Shown one piece after another: positions 3,155 to 30,388 of a stretch of 32,961 bases of DNA (position 1 is its first letter; each line of letters opens with the position of its first letter). Position numbers and translations under genes: made by a program. The stretch covers positions 1 through 32,961 of the forward strand of contig JALWFE010000075.1 of assembly GCA_027039975.1 (NCBI GenBank), read 5' to 3'. The notes below the pieces were generated by a model. It made no database searches. It was not told the origin of the DNA and saw only the letters and a program-made list of their open reading frames with translations. The stretch is from Flavobacteriales bacterium. Lineage in GTDB: Bacteria > Bacteroidota > Bacteroidia > Flavobacteriales > Flavobacteriaceae.

Positions 3155-3198
3155 CAACTTTTTTATCACTCCTCACTTCCTCAACACCTCAGTTCATA

Positions 3199-3315
3199 AA
3201 CCCGGTCACTTCGATACATCCCGTCACTTCTCCGTCGTGACGGGACACTCAGTGACCTCGCTTCGATACTATTTTGTTCGTTCCCTCCGACGTGCGTCGG
3301 GGTCACTCAATGACC
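3199..3315. repeat. Two back-to-back dispersed palindromic repeats
   Basis: The first unit (3199-3257) is a nested hairpin: outer arms GGTCACT/AGTGACC enclose inner arms TCCCGTCAC/GTGACGGGA. A near-identical inverted copy with about two differences lies at 26222-26281, upstream of cas1. The second unit (3259-3315) belongs to the same family as 30431-30477, sharing GGTC..TGAGTGA and CAAAAT.GTATCGAAGCG. These look like REP-like interspersed repeats rather than genes. Confidence 0.7.
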
Positions 3316-3328
3316 TACCTTTCAATTC

Positions 3329-3399
3329 CTCAGTTCCTCATTTCCTCACTTCCTCATTTCCTCATTTCCTCATTTCCTCATTTCCTCATTCCTCAATAC
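3329..3399. repeat. Octanucleotide satellite (TGAGGAAN on minus strand)
   Basis: About eight or nine tandem copies of an 8-nt unit, mostly CCTCATTT on the plus strand with variants ending AGTT and ACTT. The array runs into the 3' end of the neighbouring minus-strand propeller gene and supplies its last codons and stop. Related units occur at 15700-15924, 26175-26310 and near 27422. Confidence 0.8.
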
Positions 3400-6300
3400 C
3401 TCCGCACAATCCCGTATCGATATAAGGTATACCTGCTTTTTTCAATTGGTTTTCAATCTCAATTAATCCGGTTATATCTTTGTTAAGCCGGTTTTCCAGT
3501 TTTTTCAAAGTTTTTTGAGCTATTTGATATGATTGGAGATGGGCGGGAGTAGGACCGTAGGAGGAATTGCGGATACCCATTCTGACGTGGTTTAACCGGT
3601 CAAAAATAGTCGGGTCGTTTTTTTCACCAACTTCATTTTTACTTTTGCGTCCGTACATTTTTTTGTCAATTTTGTCCAAATCTTTTTTGATGTTGAGCAG
3701 TTGCGTATAAATATCTTTCAATTCTTTTCCCGATTTGATTGCCGCTTGCTGCAGTTTTTCAAGGGCATTCCGGGTTTTACGGAATTTATTGGCAAAAAGA
3801 TTGACACGGGCATTGAGTTCATCAAATTTTTGCCAAAAAGCCGCTACTTCGTTTAGGTCTTTGCCGGGCAAACTGCTTTGATACAAACGTTTGACATTGA
3901 AGTCGATGTTGCCGGTTAGTTTTTGTATTTTTCCGTTTTTGTCGATTCTGACCATATAAGCTTTGTAGGAGCCGGGAGCCACTCTTATCCCGGGATTTCC
4001 GTGATGATTTTGTTTATCCGTTTTTGAAAAACGGGTATGATTCCAAGTGACACGGTGAAAACCTTTTTTATTCGAAAGTTTTAACCGGTTTAAAATATTT
4101 CCGGTTTTGTCTGTGATGTATAAATAATTTGTCGGTTTGTTTTCCAATATTTCGGTATCCAACGCATCCCACCCCGGAAAATCGATATCTTTTCCTTCTT
4201 TTTCTGCTTTCTTTTCGGCTTTTTGTCTTTTTTCGATAGCCGATACAAAACTGTCTTTCAGGTAATAAGTAAAGGTGGTACCGTAGGGTGGGTTAGGAGC
4301 CAGAAAATACGAAGCCCCTTGTGTTCCCCGTTTGCTGCGTCCGAGAATACCTCTCTCAAAATACCACCAACTGTCACGCGGTTTGAAAACTTGGTTTGTA
4401 TCCGGTTGCGGTTTGTGTTGTTTGACAAGCTCTCTGAGAAAGCCGTAGTCATCCAAGATAAAGATACCGCGTCCGAAACTGGCACCGACCAAATCATCGT
4501 CATCTTTTTTGATAGCCAAATCTCTAAATGAAATATTGGCACCGGCATTGAGTTTGTGCCATTTTTTACCGCCGTTTAAACTGGTGTATATGCCGAATTC
4601 GGTTCCGATAAACATCAAATCCGGTTCTTTGTAATCTTGAACAAACCGCCAAACAATTAAAGGTTTTGGCAGGTTTCCGGTTATGTTATGCCAGGTTTTG
4701 CCTTTGTCGGTACTTTTATATAAATAAGGTGTAAAGTCGCCTTCTTTGTGATTGTCCAAACATACATAAACAGTAGATGCATCAAAATTATCAGCCTTAA
4801 TGTCGTTTACAAAAGCATTTTCCGGTACACCGGGTAATTTATTTACGGGTATTTTCCGCCAAGTTTGCCCGCCATTTTCGGTTACTTGAATTAAGCCGTC
4901 ATCGGTACCGGCGTATATCAAACCTTCTTGCACGGGTGATTCTGCAAGTGATGTAATTGTGTTGAAGGTGGACATGGCATAAACATCCCAAGGTGAATCC
5001 CAACTTTGTTTTTTGCCCATGATAGGCAAATCGAAGCGTTCTTGATGTTTGGTCAAATCGCCGGAAATAGGTCGCCATTTGTCGCCGCGATTGTCCGAAC
5101 GCCAGACGCGGTAAGAGCCGTAATAAATACGCTTGGGATTGTGTGGGCTGATTAAGACAGGTGCATCCCAATTGTAACGTTCAAAAGGTTCACCTTCCCG
5201 CGGCTGCGGTTGGATATAAACCATTTCACCGGTTTTCATATCTTTTCTCACCAAATTGCCTTCTTGCCATTCGGCATAGACGATATTAGGATTGCCCGGT
5301 TCGGTAGCGGGCTGGTGTCCGTCGGCAAAGAGGACAACTTCCCAGTCTCTGTTGGCAATACCGTGCAGATTGTCCGTTCGGGAAGGACCGCGTTCGGTAC
5401 TATTGTCCTGGGTGCCGCCGTAAATGTAATAGAACGGTTTGGTATCATCTAAGGCAATTTTGTAAAATTGGGTCAAAGGCAGGTTGTCGATATGCCGCCA
5501 CGATTGTCCCTGGTCAAAACTTTCGTATAGACCGCCGTCAGTACCTACAAGTAAATAATCGGGGGCATCTTTGCGGAATTTTAGAACGTGGTTGTCCGAA
5601 TGTTTGAATTTTTCGGGCATTTGCCTGAAAGTCATGCCACCGTCATCGGTAATTTTCATGCGGACATCGGCAAAGTAAACGCGGTCAAAACGGTGTGGGT
5701 CGGCATAAATTTCTTGATAGTAGTGCGGTCCGGTACCACCGGATATAATATCGGATTGTTTTTGCCAGGATTCGCCGCGATTAGTAGATTTGAAAAATGC
5801 ACCTGTTCTACGATTGAGTTCCACGGCGGCATAAATGACATCGGGTTTGATAGGGGAGACAGCCAAACCGATTTTACCCTTTTTGCCTTTGGGCATACCT
5901 TTCATAATTTTTTTCCAAGTGTCACCGCCGTCTTCGGAGCGGTAAATAGCTGTTTTCGGTCCGCCGCCCATATAAGCGGCTACTGTACGGTGTCGTTGCC
6001 AAGTGGCGGCATAAATCCTGTCGGGATTGCGCGGGTCGACGGCAATATCCGTAACACCTTCCCATTCGTCATCTCCCAAGGTTTTTTGCCAGGTTTTACC
6101 ACCGTCGGTAGTTTTATAAAAACCGCGTTCACCACCCTTAGACCATAGCGGTCCTTGAACGGCGACATATACTATATCGGAATTGCCGGGACGAACAATA
6201 ATTTTGGAAATATGTTCGGATTTTTTTAAGCCCATATTTTGCCAAGTTTTACCGTCGTCGGTGCTTAAATAAATGCCGTCACCAAATCCGACATGACGTC

Positions 6301-15636: not shown

Positions 15637-15906
15637 GGTTCATAGTGTAGTGCATTCTTTGATGTTTGTTTATTACTTCATACCTTATTCTCGTCTTATA
15701 AATTGAGGAATTGAGGATTTATTATGGTTCATAGCTTATTGTATTTTTTTGATGATTGTTTATTACTTCATACCTTATTCTCGTCTTATGAATTGAGGAA
15801 TTGAGGATTTTTTAGTGTTTTGTAGAGTGCTTTGTTCTTTAATGATTGTTTACCGGTTTATATAATGTTTTCGTTGTTGATGTTGAGGAAATGAGGATTT
15901 GTATTG
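15637..15906. repeat. Three tandem 90-bp repeats
   Basis: The copies start at about 15637, 15727 and 15817, with an exact 90-nt period: GATGTTTGTT at 15661, GATGATTGTT at 15751 and AATGATTGTT at 15841. Copies one and two share the long block from TTTATTACTTCATACC through the final TTGAGGAATTGAGGATTT; copy three is diverged but keeps GAGGAAATGAGGATTT at its end. Each unit ends in the octanucleotide satellite. No reading frame runs through. Confidence 0.85.
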
Positions 15907-15924
15907 ATTCCTCATTTCCTCAAC
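15882..15924. repeat. Perfect 16-bp inverted repeat
   Basis: GTTGAGGAAATGAGGA (15882-15897) pairs perfectly with TCCTCATTTCCTCAAC (15909-15924) around an 11-nt loop. It is formed by two opposed satellite stretches at the end of the 90-bp repeats. No T-run follows, so it is not a standard terminator. CATCA-rich sequence follows to about 15963. Confidence 0.85.
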
Positions 15925-15971
15925 TCATCACTTCATCAACTCATCAATTCATCATTTCATCAAACACAACC

Positions 15972-16111: not shown

Positions 16112-18031
16112 ATGAGCGAAAAAAAAGGAAACAAAATAATAGGTATAGATTTAGGAACTACCAATTCCGTCGTAACCGTTAGAGAAGGTAACGATACGGT
16201 TGTTATTCCCAACGCAGAAGGTAACAGAACTACCCCGTCAGTGGTAGCATTTACAGATAAAGGAGAAATCAAAGTGGGTGACCCTGCCAAACGGCAAGCT
16301 ATTACTAATCCCGAAAGAACTGTTTTCTCCATAAAAAGGTTTATGGGAAACAAATATTCGGAAGTACAAGATGAAATAAAACGTGTACCCTATAAAGTAG
16401 TTAAAGGACCGAATGATACACCACGGGTTGAAATCAACGGTAAACAATATACACCGCAAGAAATTTCGGCTATGATTTTGCAAAAATTGAAAAAAACAGC
16501 CGAAGAATATTTGGGACATCCTGTGACGGAAGCGGTGATTACCGTACCGGCATACTTTAACGATGCACAACGTCAAGCCACCAAAGAAGCCGGTGAAATT
16601 GCAGGATTAAAAGTTCGTCGTATCATCAACGAACCGACTGCCGCCGCATTGGCTTACGGTTTGGACAAATCTGACAAAGAAAAGAAAATTGCCGTATTTG
16701 ACCTCGGTGGTGGTACGTTCGATATCTCTATCTTGGATATTGGCGACGGTGTTACCGAAGTATTGTCAACTGCCGGTGATACACATTTGGGTGGTGACGA
16801 TTTCGACCAACGTATTATCGATTGGTTAGCCGACGAATTCAAAAAAGAAGAAGGTGTCGATTTGAAACAAGACCCGATGGCTTTGCAACGTTTGAAAGAA
16901 GCCGCTGAAAAAGCCAAAATAGAATTGTCTTCATCAACCGAAACAGAAATCAATTTGCCTTACATCACGGCAACGGCTTCCGGTCCGAAACACTTGGTTA
17001 AAAAATTGACCAGAGCTAAATTTGAACAATTAACCGATGATTTGGTAAAACGTGCGATGAGACCGGTTAAAGAAGCTTTGGAAAAAGCCGGTTTGAAACC
17101 GTCCGATATAGATGAAGTTATCTTGGTCGGTGGTTCTACACGTATTCCGAAAGTAGTGGAAGAAGTGGAAAAATTCTTCGGTAAAAAAGCTTCTAAAAAC
17201 GTGAACCCCGACGAAGTGGTCGCCAAAGGTGCCGGTATCCAAGGAGCCGTATTAACCGGTGATGTGGATGACGTATTATTACTTGACGTTACTCCCTTAT
17301 CACTTGGTATAGAAACGATGGGAGGTGTATTTACCAAGTTGATTGAAGCCAATACAACTATCCCGACTAAAAAATCGCAAATATTCTCAACGGCTCAAGA
17401 TAATCAACCCAGTGTTGAAATCCACGTATTGCAAGGTGAACGACCTTTGGCCAAAGACAACAAAACCATTGGACGTTTCCACTTGGACGGTATTCCGCCG
17501 GCCCGTCGCGGTGAACCGCAAATTGAAGTTACTTTTGATATCGATGCCGACGGTATCATCCACGTAACGGCTATGGATAAGAAAACCGGTAAATCCAAAG
17601 ATATCCGTATCGAAGCTTCCAGCGGTTTGAGCAAAGAAGAAATCGAAAGAATGAAGAAAGAAGCCGAAGCCAATGCCGAAGCCGACAGAATAGCCAAAGA
17701 ACGGGTTGAAAAACTCAATAAAGCCGATGCAACGGCATTCCAATTGGAAAAACTGGTTGAAGAACACAAAGACAAAATTTCCGAAGACAGCAAAAAAGCC
17801 GTTGAAGATATGGTGAAAAAGCTCAAAGAAGCTTACGACAAACAAGATGCTGATACGGCTGAAGCCGCAACCAAAGAAGCAGAAGATTTGATGATGAAAT
17901 TGGGACAAGAAATTCAATCGGCAGCTCAAGCCGGAGGTAATGCCGGTGCGCAGCAAACACAAGATACAAGTGCCTCAAACAATCAAGGCGAAGATGATGT
18001 CCAAGACGTCGATTTTGAAGAAGTGAAATAA
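16112..18031 (+). CDS. dnaK: Molecular chaperone DnaK (Hsp70)
   Basis: The 639-aa product is a full-length Hsp70. The ATPase domain has the phosphate-1 motif [10 protein letters not shown] (about 10-19), [14 protein letters not shown], the phosphate-2 motif [16 protein letters not shown] and [10 protein letters not shown]. The linker [16 protein letters not shown] leads to the substrate-binding domain, with [15 protein letters not shown], and a helical lid. The tail is Gly/Ala/Gln-rich and ends [12 protein letters not shown]. It folds nascent and heat-damaged proteins with DnaJ and GrpE, neither of which is next to it here. The ATG is preceded by a short A-rich leader with no strong Shine-Dalgarno sequence, normal for the phylum. 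Upstream sequence suggests special control. Confidence 0.99.
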
Positions 18032-18051
18032 AGTCGCAGTACATAGATAAT

Positions 18052-18091
18052 AAAACGCCAAATACCTAAACGGATGTTTGGCGTTTTTTTA
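18052..18091. terminator. Bidirectional terminator between dnaK and csm6
   Basis: AAAACGCCAAA pairs with TTTGGCGTTTT around a 14-nt loop and is followed by T-runs on the plus strand; on the minus strand it ends TTTTATTATC. It separates the convergent dnaK and csm operons. Confidence 0.8.
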
Positions 18092-18169
18092 TTTTTTGCC
18101 ATTAATTCACGAATGTTTTATTCGTGGATTGGTGATTGTTTGGGCAAGATTGTTTATAAACAAAAAAAT

Positions 18170-19519
18170 TTATAAAAATAAATGTTTGTAAATAAAATCA
18201 TTTAAATCGATATAGCTGTTTCTATTAAGGTTCAACAAATCCAAAATTTCATCAAAAATGATTGAAATTTTTTTGATATCATTTTCATCAATGGATTTTC
18301 CTTTATGAACCAAGTTATTTCTCAACACATCTAGTCCGGGATGGCGAAGTTCGTTGTTTTGATGATGTTTTTGATAGCCCTCGTTGATTTTTGCATAAAG
18401 TTCGAGTAACCGGACGGTTTTAAACAAATAATGTTCGCCGGCAATTTTTAATGCGGTATAAAGCCGTGCCGGTAAACTTTCGGGTTTTGACAAATTTTTG
18501 TCATATTGATTGATAAAAGAGGTAACTTTATCGTTATCACTATAAGCTTTTGAATCCGTTAAACCTGTTTTTTCAGCTTCATTTAACAGAAAATATATCA
18601 GCAAAAATTCGAGCGATTGTTGAAAATTGAGGACAAAATTATTATAGTTTTTATTTTGTAAAAACAAATCAGCTCTTGCCAAAAATTCGCCGAACAAAAA
18701 ATACGTTTTTGGGGTTAGGTTATCTTTCAATTCCGGGAATTCGATAACAGAAATTTGTTCGGTAAATTGTTTGACAACGGGTAAATCTTTTTGATTTTTT
18801 CTAAAACCTATATTTTTATTATAAATATTGCGAAGCCGGTAACTACCGAGTAAAACAAAATTAAAGGCTTTATTTTTTTTATTTAATAAAAGTTCTGCCG
18901 AATCATAATGGCCTAATTTAATCAAGTTTTTAACATTTTTTAAAGTAAAAAACTCTATAATATTATCTGTTTTTTTAATATTCAAAGGTCTTTTATTAAC
19001 CCCTTCAACATTTTTTAAATAAATAATTTCAGTATCTGAATGAATTTCAGGCAGCAATAACTTACAAGCAAGTTTTTGTTGTGGTGTTCCACCGGCATCT
19101 AAAAATTGCCAATGATAGTCTTTATTATAGTGATGTAAGATATTTAATTTGTTTTTATATACCGGAATAAGACTATTTTCATCTGATGGATCTATGTCAA
19201 TTGTAATAATCTCTACATCATTTATGGCATAATTTTCTTGTAAGATATTTTTGATAATTTCAGCGGCAAATAAAGTATCTTGGGTATTATAAATATTGTT
19301 TTTGCCTTGATCTGATGCGAAAAGTACAATTTTATCCGGTAGTTTCTTTAACTCATCAAGTGCTTGAGATAAAATGTTTAATTTGAAATATTCTTTTTCT
19401 TTATTCCAATTATTTAAAAAACAAAGAGTTGCCTGTCGAAATAAATTTTTATCAATAGGTTTGTTTTTATAATACAGATGCCTGTTGCCGATATTATTGA
19501 TTAGTAAGGTTTTCATCAT
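18170..19519 (-). CDS. csm6: Csm6: CARF-HEPN RNase activated by cyclic oligoadenylate
   Basis: The 449-aa protein is the accessory effector of the type III-A system. The N-terminal half is a CARF Rossmann-like domain: strand LLINNIGN at 5-12, KIVLFASDQGK near 63-73, and the ligand-loop motif DAGGTPQQKLACKLL at 141-155. The C-terminal half is an alpha-helical HEPN domain with the catalytic motif R400-NNLV-H405. In this family cyclic oligoadenylate made by Cas10 binds the CARF dimer and switches on non-specific RNA cleavage. Which ring size (cA4 or cA6) is used cannot be read from the sequence. It is the last gene of the cas6-csm operon, starting 4 nt after the csm5 stop; two ATGs in a row (19519, 19516) are possible starts. 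Sequence is AT-rich and fast-evolving in style. Confidence 0.88.
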   Translation of the reverse strand: MMKTLLINNIGNRHLYYKNKPIDKNLFRQATLCFLNNWNKEKEYFKLNILSQALDELKKLPDKIVLFASDQGKNNIYNTQDTLFAAEIIKNILQENYAINDVEIITIDIDPSDENSLIPVYKNKLNILHHYNKDYHWQFLDAGGTPQQKLACKLLLPEIHSDTEIIYLKNVEGVNKRPLNIKKTDNIIEFFTLKNVKNLIKLGHYDSAELLLNKKNKAFNFVLLGSYRLRNIYNKNIGFRKNQKDLPVVKQFTEQISVIEFPELKDNLTPKTYFLFGEFLARADLFLQNKNYNNFVLNFQQSLEFLLIYFLLNEAEKTGLTDSKAYSDNDKVTSFINQYDKNLSKPESLPARLYTALKIAGEHYLFKTVRLLELYAKINEGYQKHHQNNELRHPGLDVLRNNLVHKGKSIDENDIKKISIIFDEILDLLNLNRNSYIDLNDFIYKHLFL

Positions 19520-19523
19520 AACA

Positions 19524-20660
19524 TCATTTTAAAGATAACAAAACAAATCCCGGCATTTTCAACTCGGAAGTTAAGCGTCTTGTCTTAGGAAAGGGAAAAT
19601 CTTTATATTTTCTATTGCGGATTTTTGAAACAAAATCATCCCAGTCATCGTCATTTGCCACTTCTTTAAACCAAGCACCGGTCATATAATCCCAACCGCT
19701 ACCGGCACTCATACGTAAGAGAAATACATTTTCATTCTTTTCTGCTTGTGACTTTATGTTTTTTAATTGTTGAATAATTTTATGACCTGTTTCTGGATTT
19801 GTAAAATAACCGTCTTCTAAATCTATTTTGAAATTTTCAATTTCTTTATCGAGTAGTTTGATGGTGTGTCCGTGTATTTGTTTGAAAAAATCTTTTAAAC
19901 CGGTGATGTTTAATTTGTTTTTTTCAAAAAAACGTTCGTCAATCCGTAAGCTGAATGATACCTCTCCTTCAAAAACTTCTTTGTTTTGGGTTAACTGTTT
20001 TTTAATATACCAAAGAAAATCATTGTTGGGATTATACGAATCATTATTGCGTAAATTTAATGTTTGAAAAGTATCGATATACAGTCCTGAAATATTTGCC
20101 GGTGCATCAGACACTTGAATGTATTTGAAAATATTATTTTGCGGATTTGATTTGCTGCTTGCTTCAATTTCTAAAACAGGCTGTAATAATTTGGTGTCAT
20201 ATTTTATGTAATTTTTGTAATTTTTTAAAATATTATCAGCCTTATCTTTGTAATATTTTTCAAGAGCAGGCGTTAATAAAGCGGTGCGAATAGCCCCTTT
20301 GATAGAACTCCCAGGAATAACGGGATTCTTAGTTTTACGGTTACGGACAAATTCGAATAGATAATTGCCTTGATGCGCTTTCACCGGTAAAATTTCACTA
20401 CAAACATCTTCCAATTTAACGCCTTTGTAAGCCAGGCTTTCAAAGATATTTTCGCCTTTCACAATTTTGTTTGCCCAATCGTTAACATCTTTGATATAAC
20501 CGGATATTTTATCAAAATCCGCTTTACCTATTTGTTTGTTTTGGGGTTCGTAAAAATAATGGATACCAAGCTTTAGTTCGTTCCCGCTACCGATATGAAC
20601 GGGTGTCAGGGTTTTTAAAGATAAATTGATTGTCCTTGTTGTTATTTTTTTTGCTTCCAT
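19524..20660 (-). CDS. csm5: Csm5: type III-A RAMP protein
   Basis: The 378-aa protein caps the crRNA 3' end of the Csm complex and is needed for crRNA maturation in studied systems. RAMP features are TPVHIGSGNEL (19-29) and the Gly-rich NPVIPGSSIKGAIRTALL (112-129), followed by a long variable insertion and the C-terminal MSAGSGWDYMTGAWF segment typical of Csm5. The length is usual for the family (350-400 aa). The gene lies 11 nt after csm4. Confidence 0.93.
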   Translation of the reverse strand: MEAKKITTRTINLSLKTLTPVHIGSGNELKLGIHYFYEPQNKQIGKADFDKISGYIKDVNDWANKIVKGENIFESLAYKGVKLEDVCSEILPVKAHQGNYLFEFVRNRKTKNPVIPGSSIKGAIRTALLTPALEKYYKDKADNILKNYKNYIKYDTKLLQPVLEIEASSKSNPQNNIFKYIQVSDAPANISGLYIDTFQTLNLRNNDSYNPNNDFLWYIKKQLTQNKEVFEGEVSFSLRIDERFFEKNKLNITGLKDFFKQIHGHTIKLLDKEIENFKIDLEDGYFTNPETGHKIIQQLKNIKSQAEKNENVFLLRMSAGSGWDYMTGAWFKEVANDDDWDDFVSKIRNRKYKDFPFPKTRRLTSELKMPGFVLLSLK

Positions 20661-20671
20661 ATTCGTTGTTG

Positions 20672-21703
20672 CTAAAATTTTGCAGGAATACTTACCGGAC
20701 GTCCGTCCCTGTAAACTTTATGCTTTAAAACATTTTCGGCTTTTGCAGTGGACAAAACCACGTTTTTTCCTGTTAATTCGAAATTTATATCAAATACCGA
20801 AGCTTCCCGCAACATAAAGACACTACGCTTTTGCCAATGTGCATAAGATTCGTTTACCGTACCGGCTATATAGCCGTTCCGTTTGTCCAAAAGATAGGCC
20901 GCATTATCGAGTAAACCGTTTTGGATATTTTGCTGTCCGGGGATGAATTTGGACAAAATGATTTGTTTATTGGCATCATCCGGGATATTCAGTTTCAGAC
21001 TGTCAAATGTAACGGTAAATCTTCCGTTTCCTACGTTTTTATCGGCACCCAAACCTTCGTCTTGTAAAAATTCCAAAGCTTTTTGCAAAATATTTTTATG
21101 CCTTGTCAGGTATATGAAATACAATCCTGTTCTGTTGTCTAGTTTGTTTTGTTTATCTCCGGTTTTTTCCGGTTGATAAAAATAAGTTCTCGATACGTAA
21201 AAAGGAGCCGGCCGCTGATCTGTGGCAAACATATTGACATTACCTATTTGCACCCGCTCTTCGGTTTGAGCGGCATAAAGTTTTTCGGGATATGCTTCTT
21301 TGTTTGCTACTAAAAACTTTCCGTTGTGCAACAAATTGTTTACGGTTATGTCAAATTCAATCCGGTTGATAGTTTTTTCAAACAGCGGCAAGTCCAAAAA
21401 AGCTATTTTTTTGATTTTTTTAGCCATTCCTATTTCTGAACTGTCTTTAACCGGCAATTTGTTCATAGGTTTTGGAAAAAAATACCGGTCATCATAAAAC
21501 GGATAGGCAGAACTAACGGTTAAATCTTCATTGAGCAAATCAACTTTTTCCGGATCAATTTTTGCCAAACCGGAAATTATCGCCGCTTTGAGCGTATCGG
21601 AAGGCAAACTCAAAACTTCGTTTTGAAATTCATCTTTTTTGCCGGACATCAAAGCTAACGGCTGGTAAAAATATAATTTTGCTATTTGATATTCTTTGGT
21701 CAT
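20672..21703 (-). CDS. csm4: Csm4: type III-A RAMP protein
   Basis: The 343-aa protein is the Cas5-like subunit that holds the 5' tag of the crRNA and contacts Cas10. Recognisable parts are the N-terminal LPSDTLKAAI (33-42), the SSAYPFYDDRYFFPKP motif (64-79) and the Gly-rich loop GLGADKNVGNGRF (217-229). Its start overlaps the csm3 stop by 4 nt (ATGA), pointing to translational coupling and a fixed subunit ratio. Confidence 0.93.
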   Translation of the reverse strand: MTKEYQIAKLYFYQPLALMSGKKDEFQNEVLSLPSDTLKAAIISGLAKIDPEKVDLLNEDLTVSSAYPFYDDRYFFPKPMNKLPVKDSSEIGMAKKIKKIAFLDLPLFEKTINRIEFDITVNNLLHNGKFLVANKEAYPEKLYAAQTEERVQIGNVNMFATDQRPAPFYVSRTYFYQPEKTGDKQNKLDNRTGLYFIYLTRHKNILQKALEFLQDEGLGADKNVGNGRFTVTFDSLKLNIPDDANKQIILSKFIPGQQNIQNGLLDNAAYLLDKRNGYIAGTVNESYAHWQKRSVFMLREASVFDINFELTGKNVVLSTAKAENVLKHKVYRDGRPVSIPAKF

Positions 21704-22440
21704 ACTTGTCCGGTCATAAAGTTTTTAAACAAGTTTTTGATATCTTCTGCCGGTTCGCTTCCGGTTGTTTCGTTGCTATTATAATTTTTTTCGGTTAAAT
21801 TAAGACCGGTAAATTTGATTTTACCGTATCCGCGTGAACCGTTACCGCCGAGGTAGTCGTCTTCTAACAGTTGCATACCTTCTGCCAAGAGAGTTAACAA
21901 TTTTTGAGTTTCCGCTTCGGTATCGTCATCTTCCGATACAATATTGACCACCATTTCAAAATCAAATATAGCGCCGGCAGGAACACGTTCAAAGGTTCGA
22001 GGATTTGCTTTTGAAGTTAATCTATTGATGACAACTTCCGTTTTACTTTCTGCGAAAAGCATATCGGTATTATCCCACTCAGGATCTTTAATGTTTGAAA
22101 GTTCAGCATCACGGACAATTAAACGGGAAGCACGAGGTTCATTATTTTCTTCTGATGCGGCTGTTCCGAATAATTGGGTAATGAAAGGGTCATTTCCAAC
22201 ACCACCGTGTTTTTTTTCATCATCCGAAATTTTATATTTTGCGTGACGTAATTCCAATAATGCCCGCATTTTTCCTTTAAGCGAACTTCCGGGAATAACC
22301 GGACGTTGTGTCAAAGGATTACGGATAATCAAATTATCCGGTCCGCCGATACCCATCTGTGTATTGGTCCCACCGATATGCAAGCCGGTAACAACTTGTA
22401 TTTTTCCGTTTAAAAATATCTTTTTTTGTAATTTTTTCAT
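21700..22440 (-). CDS. csm3: Csm3: backbone subunit and target-RNA nuclease
   Basis: The 246-aa Cas7-type protein forms the filament along the crRNA and cuts target RNA every six nucleotides. VTGLHIGGTNTQMGIGGPD ends in Asp35, which aligns with the catalytic Asp32 of S. epidermidis Csm3, so RNA cleavage should be intact. The RAMP loop PVIPGSSLKGKMR is at 47-59 and a second Gly-rich loop GGNGSRGYGKIKF is at 198-210. The size is typical. It lies 12 nt after csm2 and overlaps csm4 by 4 nt. Confidence 0.96.
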   Translation of the reverse strand: MKKLQKKIFLNGKIQVVTGLHIGGTNTQMGIGGPDNLIIRNPLTQRPVIPGSSLKGKMRALLELRHAKYKISDDEKKHGGVGNDPFITQLFGTAASEENNEPRASRLIVRDAELSNIKDPEWDNTDMLFAESKTEVVINRLTSKANPRTFERVPAGAIFDFEMVVNIVSEDDDTEAETQKLLTLLAEGMQLLEDDYLGGNGSRGYGKIKFTGLNLTEKNYNSNETTGSEPAEDIKNLFKNFMTGQV

Positions 22441-22452
22441 TATTTTACAATT

Positions 22453-22899
22453 TTATTTATTGTCTTTTTTTGAGTAAAATTTATGATAAGCTAAAATAGC
22501 TTCAAAAAACTTTTGGAAATTGTCAAAAGTTTTAGGGTTGTTTTCATCCACACTATCGATTGCTTGATATAAAATTGTCGATAATTCTTTAAATATCTTT
22601 TTTTCATCTCCTTTTAATCTCCCAATAGTGTAGGCAATTTTTGGTTTTAATAGATAAAAATCGGTTTTTGAATCTTCAAATTTTTTTAATCGTATTCTTG
22701 TCACTTCACCATAAATATTGCGTAACCGTGAACTTGATGTCGTTTCTAAAAATTTACCGAGTTTATCGCAAAATTGAACCATCTCATTATTTGCTCCTTG
22801 TTTTATCCATTCCGGTTTAAAAGGTACATCAAATTTGATATTATCCCGGTTTTGATTATTACCTCTTCTTGAATTAAAATGCTGATGCGGTCTGTTCAT
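22453..22899 (-). CDS. csm2: Csm2: small subunit of the Csm complex
   Basis: The 148-aa helical protein forms the inner filament beside Csm3. The family signature is visible: TSSSRLRNIYGEVTRI near 53-69 and LKPKIAYTIGRL near 83-94. About 25 N-terminal residues are Asn/Arg-rich (RRGNNQNRDN) and look disordered, perhaps helping nucleic-acid contact. The gene sits between cas10 and csm3 with 12-nt gaps on both sides. Confidence 0.93.
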   Translation of the reverse strand: MNRPHQHFNSRRGNNQNRDNIKFDVPFKPEWIKQGANNEMVQFCDKLGKFLETTSSSRLRNIYGEVTRIRLKKFEDSKTDFYLLKPKIAYTIGRLKGDEKKIFKELSTILYQAIDSVDENNPKTFDNFQKFFEAILAYHKFYSKKDNK

Positions 22900-22911
22900 A
22901 TCATTAAATTT

Positions 22912-25419
22912 TTATTGTTTATTATCTCTATATAAAAGTTCGGCCAAGCGGGCGGCCAAGGCGTATAATTTAAAGCTGTTGTATGGACTGTTAAATGTTT
23001 GTCTTTCCCAAGTATTGTTTAAAATGTCTTTTAAAATATCCTTAATATAGCCGGCTTGATTGTTATAACGTTTTGCCATACGCGAAAAGTCATAAGCCAT
23101 CAGCCATTGTGTTTGCGGTTCATTTTGGCGTTGGTGATACATCATCAATTTTTGCAAAAAAGCTTTTGGCAGTTCGTTATTTGTCACTTTTTGATACAGT
23201 TCATTCGCTTTTTTCTTTACCATAATATATTCATTGTCCCAAGCCAATGCCGTATCGAACAGGGTAAAAGCATCTTTTTGTTTTTCAATTTCATTTTTCT
23301 TATTTTCAAATTTATACATCAATTTGATACCTTTATGAATATAAGATTTAGCCAGTTTTTCGGCATCGGCTACCATATCGGCGGCTTTTAAAACCGGGAA
23401 TTTAGGTGGTACAATCAGTTCACCGCCTGAAATACTGATATACGGATTGTTACAGACATATTTTTTAAAACTGTTTCTGATATCACCGGCAAAAGATTGT
23501 ACCACTTGCCAATCACCTAAGATGAATAAATCATCACCGCCGGCATATAATATAAATGTATATTTTTTGTATTCCGGATTTTCCGCCCAAATATAATTGA
23601 TATATGCCCGGAAGAATAAATCCAAATTACGGCTCAATGTCGCATACCGGCTGAATGTTTTTTGCTTTTCGGCAAATCCGTTTTTAAAAATGTAACCCAG
23701 ATTGTCCACGTCCATACGTATAAAACCGAGTTTATTGTAAGCGCCTTTTGTATATTGGTCAAAAGTTTTCGGATCACCTTCTTCATCTACCGGATAATCG
23801 TTCCCGCCGTAAAATTCAAATCCTTGTATGTTTTGGCTTTTGACGGTTAAAAAATCCGTATCATTAAAGCGGAATTTCAAAACGTTTTGCAGGTCTGCCA
23901 AGCGTATGTCTTCTTCCTCTATTAAAAGATGATGATACCCCCAGAAACTTAATCCGCCTTCTTTGTCCGTCCAACCGTCTTTAATCATATACCAATAACG
24001 TGATTTTTTGAGTTCTTTCCCCAAATCTATTTGAGCTTTGGTCAGTTTGGATAAATCCATACCTTCTATATTGATAACTTCTCCGGCAGGAATTTCTTCA
24101 CCAGTGATACTATCCGGAATGCTGTTGTCAGGATCACCGGTTGCTTCGAAAAAGCTATCGTAATCACCGGTAATTAAATCTTTAAACCGTTGTTGTTTGT
24201 CTTGGCCTAATTTTTCAAAAACTTTACTCCAGATTTGATGAATTTGTTTGTCAAAAACCGCAGGCATATCAATACTTTCCCAAGCCAATGCAACATACAG
24301 TTCACCACCAAATTTGTCGAGCATTTCACGGTTTAAATCTTTTTTAAGACTTTTCAGTTTCGTTATCACATCTTCCGTATTGGGCAACAGCATAAAAAAA
24401 CCGCCGCCGGAATTGTAAATAATATTTGATTGATATAAATCAAAGCTGTCCAACAAGCGTTGTGCGATGGTCTTGCCTATCAAGTGTAACAGGAATGAAC
24501 GTCCTTTGAGATTTTTGGCCGCAAATTTTGATTTGATTTTGTAAAGATAAGATTGAATGCCCGACAAGTCGGCACCTAATAAAAGAAAAGGTTTACGGTC
24601 TTTATCATTACGGAGTTTATTCAGTTCATTGGCGTCTTTTATATTTTGCCACCGGATATAATCGTAGAGGCACAGGGCAAAAGCGGCGGTAGTTTTACTA
24701 TGGTCAAAAAGCGAAACGTCCGGGATATCTTGTGTGCTCGAAGGTACATTGACCAGATATTTTTGTAACAAAAAATACAAAGTTTCAACTGTATTTTTTT
24801 TGTTCAAATTTGTTTTATCGCCGGCAAAAAAAGTTTTGATTTCCGTTTCAAACCGGTTCCAGAGTTCGGCATAAGCTTTTTCGACATCCGGTATTTCTTC
24901 TTTTTGAACCGGCATAATATCGGCTATTTGCAAATCTTTAACCGGCATACGGTAGTTGTAACCGCTATTTTCGGATTTTCCTATTTGCTCAAAAACGGAT
25001 AATAAAGGAGTTTTTTTATAATCGCCCCAATCGTTTTCGTGTTGCACATCACCGGTAAGACGGTTGCGGTCGGCACTACTGGAAAGGTGGTCGGCAAGTG
25101 TGATGATATGTTCGTGCAGATGTGCCGGTTTGTGATGCATTACGGCCATTAAGAGAATACCCGGGTCGTCCGACGGGACAAGTCTTTCGTGATAATTTAA
25201 GATTTTTTCGATAAACTGTGCCGTCCACAAAACATGCTTGTGAGAATAATTATCATTGTATTTGGGACATAAAAAAGGTTCGGCTTCTCTATAAGTTTGT
25301 TCCAATTGTTCAAAATAAGACGATTTGTTCCGGTTAAAGACATCCGCCCGTTGATAAAATTTTCCTATATCGTGCAGCAATGCCGCCGTATAAATTTTAT
25401 GTCTGGTATTATCTGTCAT
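22912..25419 (-). CDS. cas10: Cas10/Csm1: HD nuclease and cyclic-oligoadenylate synthase
   Basis: The 835-aa signature protein of type III systems. The N-terminal HD domain has H16-D17 in AALLHDIGKF and later VMHHKPAHLHEHIITLADH, for single-stranded DNA cleavage. Two Palm domains follow: the first near KNLKGRSFLLHLIGKTIAQRL and the second with LGFIRMDVDNLG and the active GGDD (627-630) in YAGGDDLFILGDW. This motif makes cyclic oligoadenylate from ATP once target RNA is bound. With both active sites intact, DNA cutting and second-messenger signalling are both expected. The ATG overlaps the cas6 stop by 11 nt. Length fits Csm1 (750-850 aa). Confidence 0.97.
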   Translation of the reverse strand: MTDNTRHKIYTAALLHDIGKFYQRADVFNRNKSSYFEQLEQTYREAEPFLCPKYNDNYSHKHVLWTAQFIEKILNYHERLVPSDDPGILLMAVMHHKPAHLHEHIITLADHLSSSADRNRLTGDVQHENDWGDYKKTPLLSVFEQIGKSENSGYNYRMPVKDLQIADIMPVQKEEIPDVEKAYAELWNRFETEIKTFFAGDKTNLNKKNTVETLYFLLQKYLVNVPSSTQDIPDVSLFDHSKTTAAFALCLYDYIRWQNIKDANELNKLRNDKDRKPFLLLGADLSGIQSYLYKIKSKFAAKNLKGRSFLLHLIGKTIAQRLLDSFDLYQSNIIYNSGGGFFMLLPNTEDVITKLKSLKKDLNREMLDKFGGELYVALAWESIDMPAVFDKQIHQIWSKVFEKLGQDKQQRFKDLITGDYDSFFEATGDPDNSIPDSITGEEIPAGEVINIEGMDLSKLTKAQIDLGKELKKSRYWYMIKDGWTDKEGGLSFWGYHHLLIEEEDIRLADLQNVLKFRFNDTDFLTVKSQNIQGFEFYGGNDYPVDEEGDPKTFDQYTKGAYNKLGFIRMDVDNLGYIFKNGFAEKQKTFSRYATLSRNLDLFFRAYINYIWAENPEYKKYTFILYAGGDDLFILGDWQVVQSFAGDIRNSFKKYVCNNPYISISGGELIVPPKFPVLKAADMVADAEKLAKSYIHKGIKLMYKFENKKNEIEKQKDAFTLFDTALAWDNEYIMVKKKANELYQKVTNNELPKAFLQKLMMYHQRQNEPQTQWLMAYDFSRMAKRYNNQAGYIKDILKDILNNTWERQTFNSPYNSFKLYALAARLAELLYRDNKQ

Positions 25420-26104
25420 TTGTTCCTGCTTTTGAATGAATTTTTACCGGATAAACGACTCCGTAATTATGTGCCGCCCCTTTGCCTAATCCGATGTGTG
25501 AAGGCAAAAATACGTTGGTGGCAAAACGCAGGTTAAATCCGATAAATTTTTGTCCTTTAAAACTGATCCAGTTTTGCTTATAGATTTTAAAATCTTTTAT
25601 AATGATTTGTTCTTTGATAAACCATCCGATACTTTTGGCAAAAATCAATATATGTTGTATAAGTTTTTTTTGCAACATAGTCATACGTTCGTCATCGGTT
25701 TGCAGGTTTTGAAATTCACGGTAATATTTGTCTTGAAGCGGCAGCCAGTTGATGATATCGTAACAGGATAATACCGGATTGAGCCTTAAATCAAATAAAT
25801 GCGCCCTGATTTTATCTATTTCAAAAGAAATGGTTTTACCGTTTACTTCAACCGTTGTATTAAAATAAGATGACAAACGTCCGATACTGGTTACGGCTTT
25901 GTTCAGATACAAGATTGCCGCTTTCCCCAAAATACTTTTGTATTGTATGTGTGGATAATTATAGTAAAAGCTGTTTTTCAGATGATTATGATATAAAATA
26001 TCGTCTGTCCCTATTAATTTCAAAACGGCAGAACGCAATAAATCCGTTTCGTAAGGTTCCAAATCTTGTTTAAAAATAAATTCTTGATAAGCCAGTTGCG
26101 GCAT
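25409..26104 (-). CDS. cas6: Cas6 crRNA-processing endoribonuclease
   Basis: The 231-aa RAMP protein cuts the pre-crRNA inside each repeat. It has the N-terminal pattern YHNH (38-41) followed by YNYPHIQYK (48-56), and the C-terminal Gly-rich loop IGLGKGAAHNYG (204-215). This resembles the Cas6b-type architecture found in Bacteroidota. H39 and H41 are candidate catalytic residues, an inference from other Cas6 enzymes. It is the first gene of the operon, 12-25 nt after a strong promoter, and overlaps cas10 by 11 nt. Confidence 0.9.
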   Translation of the reverse strand: MPQLAYQEFIFKQDLEPYETDLLRSAVLKLIGTDDILYHNHLKNSFYYNYPHIQYKSILGKAAILYLNKAVTSIGRLSSYFNTTVEVNGKTISFEIDKIRAHLFDLRLNPVLSCYDIINWLPLQDKYYREFQNLQTDDERMTMLQKKLIQHILIFAKSIGWFIKEQIIIKDFKIYKQNWISFKGQKFIGFNLRFATNVFLPSHIGLGKGAAHNYGVVYPVKIHSKAGTNDR

Positions 26105-26121
26105 ATTTTTAATTTTTTTAC

Positions 26122-26151
26122 CAAAAATAAAAAATTTTTTATATTTTACAA
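26122..26151 (-). promoter_or_regulatory. Promoter of the cas6-csm operon
   Basis: On the minus strand TTG (26149-26151), 19 nt spacing and TATTTTTG (26122-26129) make a canonical Bacteroidota promoter. The cas6 ATG is at 26104, giving a leader of roughly a dozen nucleotides. The whole seven-gene operon can be read from it; gaps between genes are -11 to +12 nt. Confidence 0.7.
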
Positions 26152-26174
26152 CTAAACTTATAAAAAATTATTAA

Positions 26175-26310
26175 CAATGAACTGAGGAATTGAGGAAGTG
26201 AGGAAATGAGGAGTAAGAAGTAGGTCATTGAGTGTCCCGTCACGACGGAGAAGTGACGGGATGTATCGAAATGACCGGGTTGATAAATTGAGGAAATGAG
26301 GAATTGAGGA
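26175..26310. repeat. Satellite plus 59-bp nested hairpin between cas6 and cas1
   Basis: TGAGGAAN octamers flank both sides (26180-26214 and 26287-26310). Between them, 26222-26281 is an inverted, almost identical copy of 3199-3257, with arms GTCCCGTCAC/GTGACGGGA. The insertion occupies most of the space before cas1, where no good -33/-7 promoter for cas1 is visible. Confidence 0.8.
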
Positions 26311-26353
26311 AAGATAATTAAAGTTATAAAAAATCATCAATTCATCAACAAAA

Positions 26354-27331
26354 ATGAAAGTAGTTGTAGAAACTTATGGTGCACAAATATCCATAGAAAC
26401 CGGTGTATTGCAGATAGATGCCGGTGAGTCGCATACCGAAGTGTCATTATTACACGTCACTTCGTTGCATATTCAGACTTCGGCACGTATCAGTTCCGAT
26501 GCGTTGACGGCTTGTATCAAATCGGGTATTCCCGTATATTTTGAAAACGATTTGGAAGTGGAGGCTATGTTGTGGTCACCGTATTACGGTTCTATTGCCA
26601 ATATTCGCAAGAAACAAGCTTTGTTTGCGTTTTCAAAACACAAATATGTTTTGATAAAGCGGTTGTTAATCCGTAAAAATGCGATGCGTGTACGCTTTTT
26701 GCGACAAATAAGCACTATTGAAAAAATACAAGAATATGCCTTAAAAATTGAAGACATTAACAAGATGATTGAAAACGCTCCCGGCAAAGATGCTTATTTG
26801 CGTTCGTTGGAAGGTAATAGTTCCAAAAAATATTTTGAAGCTTATAATTTGTTATTACCGGTGGAGTGGCGGTTTGAAAAACGTACTTATCAAAATACCC
26901 GCGATTTGATTAACAATTTGCTTAATTACGGATACGGTATGCTTTATAAAGAGATTACCAAAGCCTTAATTGTGGCAGGATTGGATCCGGATTTAGGTTT
27001 TTTTCATGCCGCACAATACAATAAGCCCGGATTAAGTTTTGATTTGATAGAACCATACAGGGTTTGGGTGGAAGAACAAGTTTTAAAAACCATAAGAGAT
27101 AAAACATTCAAACAAATACGGAATAAATTGGACGAAAACGGACGTTTAAGTAAAGAAACCAAGCATTTGTTTATAGAAAAAATGACCGGTTTTATGACAC
27201 AAAAGAAAATATTGTGGCAAAAGCGGGTCAAAACGCCGCAAACACATATCCAGTTGGATGCACATCAAGTTGCAAAATATTTATTAAATTTCAGTCTCAA
27301 AGATTTGTTGAAAAGTTTACAAACGGAATAA
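26354..27331 (+). CDS. cas1: Cas1 integrase
   Basis: The 325-aa protein is the catalytic subunit of the spacer-integration complex with Cas2. The three metal-binding residues are present: Glu153 in SLEGNSSKKYF, His218 in LGFFHAAQYNKP and Asp230 in LSFDLIEPYR (with Glu233). The N-terminal beta-domain and C-terminal helical domain are complete and no fusion partner (reverse transcriptase or Cas6) is attached. It points away from the csm operon. Upstream there is only satellite and hairpin repeat, and 109 nt separate it from cas2, so the adaptation genes may have their own weak expression. Confidence 0.97.
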   Translation: MKVVVETYGAQISIETGVLQIDAGESHTEVSLLHVTSLHIQTSARISSDALTACIKSGIPVYFENDLEVEAMLWSPYYGSIANIRKKQALFAFSKHKYVLIKRLLIRKNAMRVRFLRQISTIEKIQEYALKIEDINKMIENAPGKDAYLRSLEGNSSKKYFEAYNLLLPVEWRFEKRTYQNTRDLINNLLNYGYGMLYKEITKALIVAGLDPDLGFFHAAQYNKPGLSFDLIEPYRVWVEEQVLKTIRDKTFKQIRNKLDENGRLSKETKHLFIEKMTGFMTQKKILWQKRVKTPQTHIQLDAHQVAKYLLNFSLKDLLKSLQTE

Positions 27332-27440
27332 ATCATCATTTCATCAATTTTAAAGGTAAATATACGGTATGAAATACAAAACAGTCATTAAAAACGTTGC
27401 TAATCTATGAAGTAGATAAAATCCTCAATTCCTCATTAAT
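27332..27440. other. Gap between cas1 and cas2
   Basis: A 109-nt spacer with no gene. Satellite-like blocks occur at both ends (ATCATTTCATCAAT at 27334 and AATCCTCAATTCCTCATT at 27420). This is wider than the usual cas1-cas2 spacing and looks like repeat insertion. Confidence 0.5.
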
Positions 27441-27743
27441 ATGAAAACCTACATTATATTTTACGATATTACAAACAATAAAAGCCGGAATACGGTAGTC
27501 AAACAGTTGAAACGGGCCGGATTTTACAGGATTCAAAAATCCGTTTTTATGGGTAGTACAACGGCTGAATATTTGCAAGATTTACGGGAATTATTTGATG
27601 TATTGTTGCAAAAAGAAGATGCCGGATTTGATTCGTATATTTTATTACCACTTAACGAGTTGAGTTTGAAACAAATGGAAATTTTGAATTTAAAATTGGA
27701 TATTGATTTGATAACCGGAAAAAAAATTGTTATATTTGTGTGA
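27441..27743 (+). CDS. cas2: Cas2 adaptation protein
   Basis: The 100-aa ferredoxin-like protein begins MKTYIIFYDITNNKSRNTVV, with the conserved Asp9 in the first strand. RIQKSVFMG is the second family motif. It forms the structural dimer between two Cas1 dimers. The stop codon lies 120 nt before the first CRISPR repeat. Confidence 0.97.
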   Translation: MKTYIIFYDITNNKSRNTVVKQLKRAGFYRIQKSVFMGSTTAEYLQDLRELFDVLLQKEDAGFDSYILLPLNELSLKQMEILNLKLDIDLITGKKIVIFV

Positions 27744-27863
27744 AACTTACGTGAAATAGCTCATTGACATAAAAAAAATTTGTATTTTTGCAGTGAAATA
27801 GAATTTGAATCCGGAATGAATCTTTGTATCGTTTTGGTTTTCAATTTTTTATAAAATTTTCCT
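27744..27863 (+). promoter_or_regulatory. CRISPR leader with promoter
   Basis: This AT-rich 120-nt stretch between cas2 and the first repeat has TTGAC (27764) and TATTTTTG (27783-27790), a promoter-like pair with a rather short 16-nt spacing. Transcription would enter the array from the left. The position next to cas2 and opposite the degenerate terminal repeat both mark it as the leader. Confidence 0.65.
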
Positions 27864-30388
27864 CTCCAAACCCCTCTCCAGTTTAAAGAAGGACTAAGAC
27901 GTACTCCGCCTTACAACTGTAAGCATCGTTCAAATCACTCCAAACCCCTCTCCAGTTTAAAGAAGGACTAAGACAATTCTTGATGTTGCCCGCCCTTTCC
28001 AATACTTGCCTCCAAACCCCTCTCCAGTTTAAAGAAGGACTAAGACCAAAACTGGTATGGATGTAGCAAATCAATATGAGTCTCCAAACCCCTCTCCAGT
28101 TTAAAGAAGGACTAAGACTTTATGGCCAGCCTCTTCTAAAGCTTTGATAGAAGATTCTCCAAACCCCTCTCCAGTTTAAAGAAGGACTAAGACATTCGTT
28201 TACTGCTTTGTTTTTTTGCAATACTTCGGTGTCTCCAAACCCCTCTCCAGTTTAAAGAAGGACTAAGACTTTCTTTCATAAGTACATATTTTGTGGTTTG
28301 ATTATCTCCAAACCCCTCTCCAGTTTAAAGAAGGACTAAGACTTATCAATACCGGCTTCTATTTGCTCTTGTGTTACTCTCCAAACCCCTCTCCAGTTTA
28401 AAGAAGGACTAAGACTATAAATACCGAAACGGCAAAAAAAATATTAAAAAATCTCCAAACCCCTCTCCAGTTTAAAGAAGGACTAAGACGCTCTATGAAG
28501 CGAAATCATAACAGTATCATAATCTCTCCAAACCCCTCTCCAGTTTAAAGAAGGACTAAGACGATTTTTTGTGTTTTCATTTTGCTATTTTTTTTATTCT
28601 CCAAACCCCTCTCCAGTTTAAAGAAGGACTAAGACTATGTATGAAACTAATTTTACAAGTGCTTTATCTTTCTCCAAACCCCTCTCCAGTTTAAAGAAGG
28701 ACTAAGACATACCCGGCACTCGTTTGTTGGCTATTTCGTAATTCTCCAAACCCCTCTCCAGTTTAAAGAAGGACTAAGACTTTTTTTAATGTTTTCAATT
28801 TGTCGGACATAACTGAACTCCAAACCCCTCTCCAGTTTAAAGAAGGACTAAGACTGAATTAGAGAAGCATCAGCCGGACGATATTTTCTCCAAACCCCTC
28901 TCCAGTTTAAAGAAGGACTAAGACTTTACCGGTATGCCTGTGTGGTAAGCTTTGATTTCTCCAAACCCCTCTCCAGTTTAAAGAAGGACTAAGACAATAT
29001 ATCAATGAGCAACAAAAATCGTTATTTTTTACCTCCAAACCCCTCTCCAGTTTAAAGAAGGACTAAGACAATTTTTATCATTTTTGATAATTTGGCATAC
29101 TATTTCTCCAAACCCCTCTCCAGTTTAAAGAAGGACTAAGACTGAAAATTGACATAATAATAAATGGAAAATTTTATACTCCAAACCCCTCTCCAGTTTA
29201 AAGAAGGACTAAGACACGATTGATGATTTTCAAATTTTACATATCGGGCACTCCAAACCCCTCTCCAGTTTAAAGAAGGACTAAGACAAAGGTTTCGACC
29301 TTGTTTCTTTAACAAATCGAACTCCAAACCCCTCTCCAGTTTAAAGAAGGACTAAGACTGAGAAAAAAGTGGTGAAAATGGCGATTTTTGGCGCTCCAAA
29401 CCCCTCTCCAGTTTAAAGAAGGACTAAGACTACCCCAACACACGTCTGGCACTGCGGTATTGATACTCCAAACCCCTCTCCAGTTTAAAGAAGGACTAAG
29501 ACGATAAAAAGATGGTTGTAAAAAATAGTTGTAAAAACTCCAAACCCCTCTCCAGTTTAAAGAAGGACTAAGACTCTTTATAAGTGGCGTTTACCCACCC
29601 GCCATCTACAATCTCCAAACCCCTCTCCAGTTTAAAGAAGGACTAAGACGCACCAACAACGGGGTTGTTGTCCTCATCAATTATTTTCTCCAAACCCCTC
29701 TCCAGTTTAAAGAAGGACTAAGACTTTTATTACCTTTGCAAATAAGAAAGCCGGCAGTGGTTCTCCAAACCCCTCTCCAGTTTAAAGAAGGACTAAGACA
29801 CTTTCCTTTTTTCATCTGGTAATTGTCTTAAAAATTCTCCAAACCCCTCTCCAGTTTAAAGAAGGACTAAGACTTTACTGAATTTGGCTTTTATTTCTGC
29901 TTTTTTTCCCTCCAAACCCCTCTCCAGTTTAAAGAAGGACTAAGACTGCCTGATATTATCTTTTGTTATTCCTTGATAATAACTCCAAACCCCTCTCCAG
30001 TTTAAAGAAGGACTAAGACATTATTGAAAGCTGACCGGATATTCACCGATAAACTTCTCCAAACCCCTCTCCAGTTTAAAGAAGGACTAAGACTTTCCCT
30101 CATCTTGTAATTTAGCCAATCGTCCGGTGCTCCAAACCCCTCTCCAGTTTAAAGAAGGACTAAGACTTCCGTTTAAAAATCTGGTCTCTTTTTTCATTTT
30201 TTTCTCCAAACCCCTCTCCAGTTTAAAGAAGGACTAAGACAAAATATTCCCCAATCCGCTACCGTTTAATTGAAAATTCTCCAAACCCCTCTCCAGTTTA
30301 AAGAAGGACTAAGACCCCGCCACACTTGCCGCACATTCCACCGATTAGGCACTCCAAACCCCTCTCCAGTTTAAAGAAGGACAACTTA
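27864..30388 (+). CRISPR. CRISPR array, 35 repeats and 34 spacers
   Basis: The 37-nt repeat starts CTCCAAACCCC and ends GAAGGACTAAGAC. First repeats start at 27864, 27938, 28010 and 28082; the last at 30352. Thirty-four copies look identical by eye. The last keeps only its first 31 nt (to 30382) and then diverges, which marks the trailer end. Spacers are 33-39 nt, the variable length usual for type III. The repeat has little self-complementarity beyond TTTAAA. If read on the plus strand, Cas6 would leave a 5' tag such as ACTAAGAC, so crRNAs would carry the plus-strand spacer sequence. No spacer duplicates were noticed. Confidence 0.98.

Follow-up and report, generated by a model that had tools for sequence, protein, structure and literature searches.

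The cited sections of Vink et al. (2021, PMC8482600) report that 65% of type III spacers on average are mRNA-compatible, while type II systems prefer the template strand. In Thermus thermophilus, whose type III systems lack a reverse transcriptase (RT), spacers are taken up from both strands and selection yields the bias, according to the sections of Artamonova et al. (2020, PMC7515739) used here. The relevant portion of the study of Marinomonas mediterranea describes entry of type III-B spacers in either orientation, with antisense host-derived spacers counter-selected when the effector is present (PMC5576922). Within Flavobacterium columnare, the VI-B spacers of natural isolates hit the phage mRNA strand only and about half of the II-C spacers are mRNA-compatible, and of the total phage-derived II-C spacers in an adaptation experiment, a fraction of 0.319 was able to bind mRNA (PMC8092290, in the excerpted results).

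The locus described here lies in a window (the whole stretch of DNA that was analysed) of 32,961 nucleotides from a metagenome-assembled genome of a Flavobacteriales bacterium. Its features are collected in Table 1. The adaptation genes cas1 and cas2 precede the array on the forward strand, and cas6, csm1 to csm5 and a Csx1/Csm6-like gene run leftwards on the other. The Csm1/Cas10 product matches TIGR02578 with 596.9 bits (cut-off 170) and is called Cas10a by PADLOC; its HDIGK and GGDD stretches are presumably the HD and GGDD motifs. For the 449-aa protein, the top PADLOC matches are Csx1 and Csx1/Csm6 CARF+HEPN, with no Pfam or NCBIfam match at E 0.001, and we take its RNNLVH stretch to be a form of the HEPN motif. 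Cas6 and a repeat-spacer array are both present at the locus. Cas1 gave Cas1 domain matches only, with no fused RT in Pfam or NCBIfam, and none of the nine cas-locus proteins matched an RT family in these two libraries at E 0.001. A preliminary description of this DNA, made from its letters, had spoken of an RNA-targeting system with no RT fused to Cas1; the Csm1-Csm5 matches above their cut-offs and the domain content of the 325-aa Cas1 bear out both points. On its predicted gene content, the locus is a full type III-A (Csm) gene set with its own RT-free Cas1-Cas2, and its GGDD, HD and Csx1-like parts would predict cyclic oligoadenylate signalling together with RNA cleavage. It differs in this respect from the system of M. 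mediterranea, which, as far as the cited portion goes, combines an RT-Cas1 with a type III-B effector (PMC5576922), and from F. columnare VI-B, where RNA is targeted by Cas13 in place of Csm (PMC8092290, same excerpt).

Table 1. Features of the type III-A locus and selected spacers, in window coordinates.
Feature	Position	Strand	Observation
Csx1/Csm6-like CARF-HEPN protein, 449 aa	18170..19519	-	PADLOC; RNNLVH stretch
csm5	19524..20660	-	above NCBIfam cut-off
csm4	20672..21703	-	above NCBIfam cut-off
csm3	21700..22440	-	above NCBIfam cut-off
csm2	22453..22899	-	above NCBIfam cut-off
csm1/cas10	22912..25419	-	HDIGK and GGDD stretches
cas6	25409..26104	-	Cas6b domains
cas1, 325 aa	26354..27331	+	no reverse-transcriptase domain reported
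cas2	27441..27743	+	Pfam/NCBIfam profile matches
leader	27744..27863	+	between cas2 and array; 72-74% similar leaders in sister genomes G585 and G586
CRISPR array	27864..30382	+	34 full 37-nt repeats, 31-nt terminal repeat, 34 spacers of 33-39 nt
spacer 7	28343..28378	+	28/36 match, phage contig G586:C127, antisense to gene adjoining terminase
spacer 12	28709..28743	+	34/35 match, G128 prophage, antisense to DNA methyltransferase gene
spacer 19	29216..29250	+	31/35 match, terminase large-subunit gene of G586:C127, sense
spacer 25	29650..29687	+	antisense frame KIIDEDNNPVVGA, resembles CarboxypepD_reg-like motif

The array was assigned the plus direction because the leader lies between cas2 and the array, the degenerate repeat is distal, and two sister genomes, G585 and G586 (Cas1 90% and 82% identical to that of the window), show the same arrangement of leader, array and degenerate end. 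From this anatomy, the array would be read rightwards from the leader with Cas6 cleaving the repeats, and plus-strand crRNAs would bear the ACTAAGAC handle. The leader holds one match, TTG-N16-TANNTTTG, to what we take to be a promoter consensus. This cue is weak: the two strands of the window hold 9 and 10 such matches, and the match is absent from the leaders of G585 and G586.

The preliminary description had proposed, from peptides read in nine spacers, that the spacers are antisense to protein-coding RNA. Its coordinates coincide exactly with spacer boundaries and the quoted peptides are found in the reverse complement, where the last K of TGRLAKLQDEGK alone depends on an incomplete codon. 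It had also warned that open frames prove little, rightly so: every one of the 34 spacers has an open frame on the reverse complement, and every one also has one on the plus strand. Because open frames are thus uninformative, each spacer was scored by a codon/composition log-likelihood model as coding on one strand versus the other, with a strand-flip p and five training sets in all. With the main set, 23 of the 34 spacers favour the reverse complement (antisense fraction 0.80, 0.58-0.94; p=0.004). The four other sets gave 22-24 of 34 spacers, fractions of 0.68-0.79 and p values of 0.002-0.010; the score sum was positive in all five, and the interval from the prophage-trained set (0.48-0.85) still includes one half. 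On 34-37-nt pieces of phage and prophage genes of the genus that had been kept out of training, the score found the correct strand in 76.6% of cases, so that 23 of 34 spacers correspond to about 0.83 antisense. The signal is mostly the purine/pyrimidine strand skew common to coding strands (plus-strand purines 0.437 in the window spacers), and the frame-specific remainder of this array alone is weak to marginal (p 0.02 and 0.10). The argument from residue make-up stands as a statistical lean, but it reflects composition more than reading frame.

The nine cited spacers were favourable picks. Eight of them score above zero (the one at 27901 scores 0.0), and they scored above the remaining 25, among which 15 are above zero with an antisense fraction of 0.69 (0.43-0.90). 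Clear sense scores, from -3.0 to -4.5, belong to the spacers at 28047, 28416, 28996 and 30020. Antisense orientation is a real tendency of the window array, and no rule; most spacers lean as had been claimed, but the lean is partial, spacer 19 is sense and the uniformity was overstated.

Other arrays were scored in the same manner. In place of the type I arrays that had been suggested for comparison, the type II arrays of the genus were used; the type III arrays of the phylum were those near csm1-like genes. The orientation of an array can be read from the form of the repeat 3' end, in type II by a corresponding rule on repeat form. Type III arrays were oriented by this form, never by spacer content, in agreement with the degenerate end in those used arrays that have one. 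The type II assignment rests on Cas9 on four of six contigs and on a confirmed type II Cas1 on the other two; with the orientation given by repeat form, crRNAs run towards cas2 in 6/6. The type II orientation used here agrees with the excerpted results for F. columnare, in which II-C spacers have their PAM-side ends turned towards the leader (PMC8092290).

Three type III arrays of the genus (89 distinct spacers) gave an antisense fraction of 0.80 (0.67-0.90), and 21 arrays from 15 genomes of the phylum (307 spacers) gave 0.86 (0.79-0.93), with a frame-specific remainder beyond composition (p 2e-5 and 0.003). For type II, the 102 spacers of six arrays in five genomes of the genus gave 0.34 (0.22-0.47), a value that would be 0.66 with the orientation reversed. 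An antisense lean is seen in 23 of 24 type III arrays (18 genomes) versus one of the six type II arrays, and a bootstrap over arrays put type III at 0.78-0.91 and type II at 0.25-0.42. No age gradient was seen when the type III arrays were pooled (rho 0.07, p 0.21). These values show the same type III lean towards mRNA binding, and the opposite for type II, as the cited sections of Vink et al. (2021, PMC8482600); there, protospacers were mapped, whereas here the strand came mostly from the spacer sequences, and the type III estimate is higher (0.80-0.86). The type II value of 0.34 is near the 0.319 of the F. columnare II-C experiment (PMC8092290, same excerpt).

Six arrays of unsettled orientation were left out of the strand pool. 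One is L096 (19 spacers, LLR sum -31.5 as printed), whose orientation cues conflict and which would oppose the trend if its degenerate end gives the correct orientation. The others, also as printed, are L083 (28 spacers, +2.2), L086 (14 spacers, +7.1), L097 (3 spacers, -1.7), the 3-spacer array in L080 (-9.4) and L187 (4 spacers, -10.1). Among the 35 loci L066-L100, 15 had no array accepted by the array finder. For the G585 array (L065), 28 distinct spacers were scored, leaving out some units whose repeats are damaged or whose lengths are unusual.

Scoring the strand of each protospacer against its gene, the check put forward in the preliminary description, could be carried out for 3 of the 34 window spacers, and its outcome was divided: two foreign protospacers are antisense and one is sense. 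In a search of 13 genomes of the genus, spacer 12 matched a prophage of genome G128, where the methyltransferase peptide is exactly NYEIANKRVPG on the predicted strand, as had been read from the spacer. The match of spacer 7 was overlooked by this search and was found on the 3.2-kb contig of G586 that also holds the target of spacer 19; its frame VTQEQIEAGID compares with VTDEQKEAGID in the phage gene. As the target of spacer 19 is in sense orientation, its crRNA cannot bind the terminase mRNA. When the letters of each of the three spacers were shuffled 300 times, no shuffle equalled the real score across the 38 kb examined. Three further matches (34/36, 34/35 and 36/36), all antisense, come from spacers of the sister array of G586 and lie in the G128 element. 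Five of six foreign protospacers of the two arrays are therefore antisense, a count that is not significant alone, and four of the five sit in this one element, whose hit genes are on one strand. The flanks of the five antisense protospacers have no common motif, as expected for PAM-free type III, and show little identity to the crRNA-handle end of the repeat.

The G128 element (L061 4826-18000 and L062, which is G128:C20) is integrated beside suf genes and carries genes for an integrase, the methyltransferase, a large SNF2-like helicase and an M23-type endopeptidase. It is targeted four times by the two sister arrays. The viral contig IMGVR_UViG_3300031224_000003 is a distant relative.

The G586 locus is organized differently. 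On one contig (L064, which is G586:C68, 4175-11010), dnaK is followed by a 164-aa frame with no Pfam match, cas6, cas1, cas2 and an array of 27 spacers; the csx1-to-csm1 block, present between dnaK and cas6 in the corresponding region of the window (16112-30382), is absent there. Csm1 and Csm3 were not found elsewhere in this 83%-complete genome, a search that is imperfect, given that a clear Csm3 was likewise missing from G585 (97% complete, csm1 start at a contig edge). The block may have been lost by G586 or gained by the others. The 13 leader-proximal spacers have an antisense fraction of 0.44 (0.17-0.75) and the 14 distal ones 0.98 (0.67-1.00). The halves compare as 5/13 and 12/14 (Fisher p 0.018, with the halves of three arrays inspected), a change-point test gave p 0.09-0.10, and no comparable break between newer and older spacers is seen in the arrays of the window and of G585. 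The newest, leader-proximal spacer of G586 matches the genome's own ATP synthase epsilon gene, atpC, at 35/35 in sense, about 40-75 nt past the start codon (L064 9066-9100 and L156 1504-1538).

We regard it as conceivable, though rather doubtful, that G586 represents a natural effector deletion, in which later spacers became strand-random while older ones kept the antisense bias. Two points reduce the odds slightly: Csm3 was missing in G585 too, and spacer 11, which belongs to the newer half and has a sense score, maps antisense. As a hint, and suggestive only, the pattern points to new spacers losing their orientation without the effector, which would place the bias in selection. If this is true, the strand make-up of an array would record the time at which an RNA-targeting effector was lost, with no known target needed, and arrays of this kind would allow acquisition bias and selection bias to be told apart in nature.

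The window most probably encodes an RT-less type III-A system in which spacers are taken up in both orientations and antisense spacers are then selected. Cas1-Cas2 would copy fragments of invader DNA into the array either way round; uptake in both orientations is indicated because spacer 19 (foreign) and the atpC spacer of G586 (self) are sense. For a type III complex to act, the transcript must be complementary to its crRNA, and in this family Cas10 activation leads to cyclic oligoadenylate signalling to a Csx1/Csm6-type nuclease. By analogy, a Csm-crRNA complex bound to a complementary transcript would activate Cas10, and the cyclic oligoadenylate made would switch on the Csx1/Csm6-like nuclease. 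Cells with a new antisense spacer would outlive others and raise the observed antisense share to about 80%, with sense spacers such as spacer 19 remaining as passengers. An age gradient, possible under continuing purifying selection, is absent from the pooled type III arrays and counts against this selection. As in T. thermophilus, a conventional Cas1 goes with a dominance of transcript-complementary spacers and with some sense spacers; that work, in the sections cited, was an experimental infection, whereas the window offers a standing array of a metagenome-assembled genome with few known targets (PMC7515739). The both-strand uptake and selection published there answer the puzzle of the missing RT raised in the preliminary description.

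The lean might instead be made at integration, if Cas1-Cas2 or a partner preferred pyrimidine-rich or displaced single strands. The predominance of composition skew in the window and the lack of an age gradient would suit such oriented uptake, as would the strand-tied uptake of Streptococcus thermophilus type III-A, although this runs towards the encoding strand in the work summarised in the section cited (PMC9048733). It does not account readily for the frame-specific remainder of the phylum pool, for the sense foreign and sense self spacers or, a weakly supported point, for the unbiased newer half of the effector-less G586 array, and the cited sections on RT-less type III uptake describe both strands (PMC7515739). 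Overall, we consider it improbable. Selection of antisense spacers is also favoured over chance, by which the window would have no real bias and open frames would merely have been picked in short AT-rich pieces. The openness of every spacer on both strands, the window-only p values and the two-to-one split of mapped protospacers leave room for this, but the recurrence of the lean in all but one of the type III arrays, and its reversal in type II of the genus, make it very unlikely. Least credible of all is uptake from RNA through an RT acting in trans: the antisense lean itself is what such uptake might produce, but Cas1 has the length and matches of a plain Cas1, no RT family was matched at the cas locus, and in the cited portion of the Marinomonas study the bias from RT-driven uptake is moderate at most (PMC5576922).

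The window array is an ordinary new example of a bias that, with its explanation, is already in print; its antisense majority, sense passengers and, in the sister array, a tolerated sense self spacer fit published type III behaviour. What it adds is that spacers alone suffice to read the RNA-targeting orientation of type III arrays, in a lineage that is uncultivated and has very few known viruses. This suggests a possible test, needing no known targets, for whether an array works with an RNA-sensing effector; it could be applied to spacers that match nothing in the databases.

Further matches were searched for and set aside. The whole array gave short matches of E 3 or worse in 17 of 50,697 phage records and matches in 22 of 72,556 plasmid records (best E 0.2), none of which were counted; spacer 16 (31/35, Wolbachia plasmid) and spacer 18 (28/30, Leptospira plasmid) were discarded as AT-rich matches in unrelated hosts. 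The best off-array match in the own genome (E 0.002, 29/35, AT-rich spacer 23) lies in a stretch with no frame above 40 codons and was likewise discarded. A shallow search of 397 genomes of the family, with two candidates per genome scored, recovered the G128 match again together with matches of low complexity for spacers 8, 10, 28 and a small number of further spacers; these were not counted, that of spacer 10 being equalled by 5 of 300 shuffles in the 38-kb set, nor was a 24/37 match of spacer 32 in G588. Frame-tolerant patterns for five of the 34 spacers (25, 24, 31, 3 and 34, the last singled out earlier as zinc-knuckle-like) had no hits in viral contigs. The zinc knuckle suggested for spacer 34 and the gene start suggested for spacer 32 are at most candidate readings. 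A 32/38 match of spacer 25 in a Prolixibacteraceae TonB-receptor gene, among genome contigs, was not counted because the pattern forces the frame. Viral contigs held no terminase relatives and one contig with methyltransferase and helicase relatives, in which the first 15.3 kb scanned contained no recognisable protospacer; no Csm1 relatives were found among the genome contigs.

Several repeats were also observed. In the G585 array, an adjacent spacer pair is duplicated (19=25 and 20=26; L065 4757-4863 and 5190-5296), and one unit has a TG-run spacer about 17 nt long (L065 4013-4104). The stretch just 3' of this array (L065 about 5621-5660) is a short interspersed repeat, with 83-91% copies in many contigs of G000, G585 and other genomes of the genus. 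In the window, 8-nt repeats of the type TTCCTCAT, with inverted copies TGAGGAAA, are found at several intergenic sites (within 3163-3388, 15892-15970 and 26175-26318).
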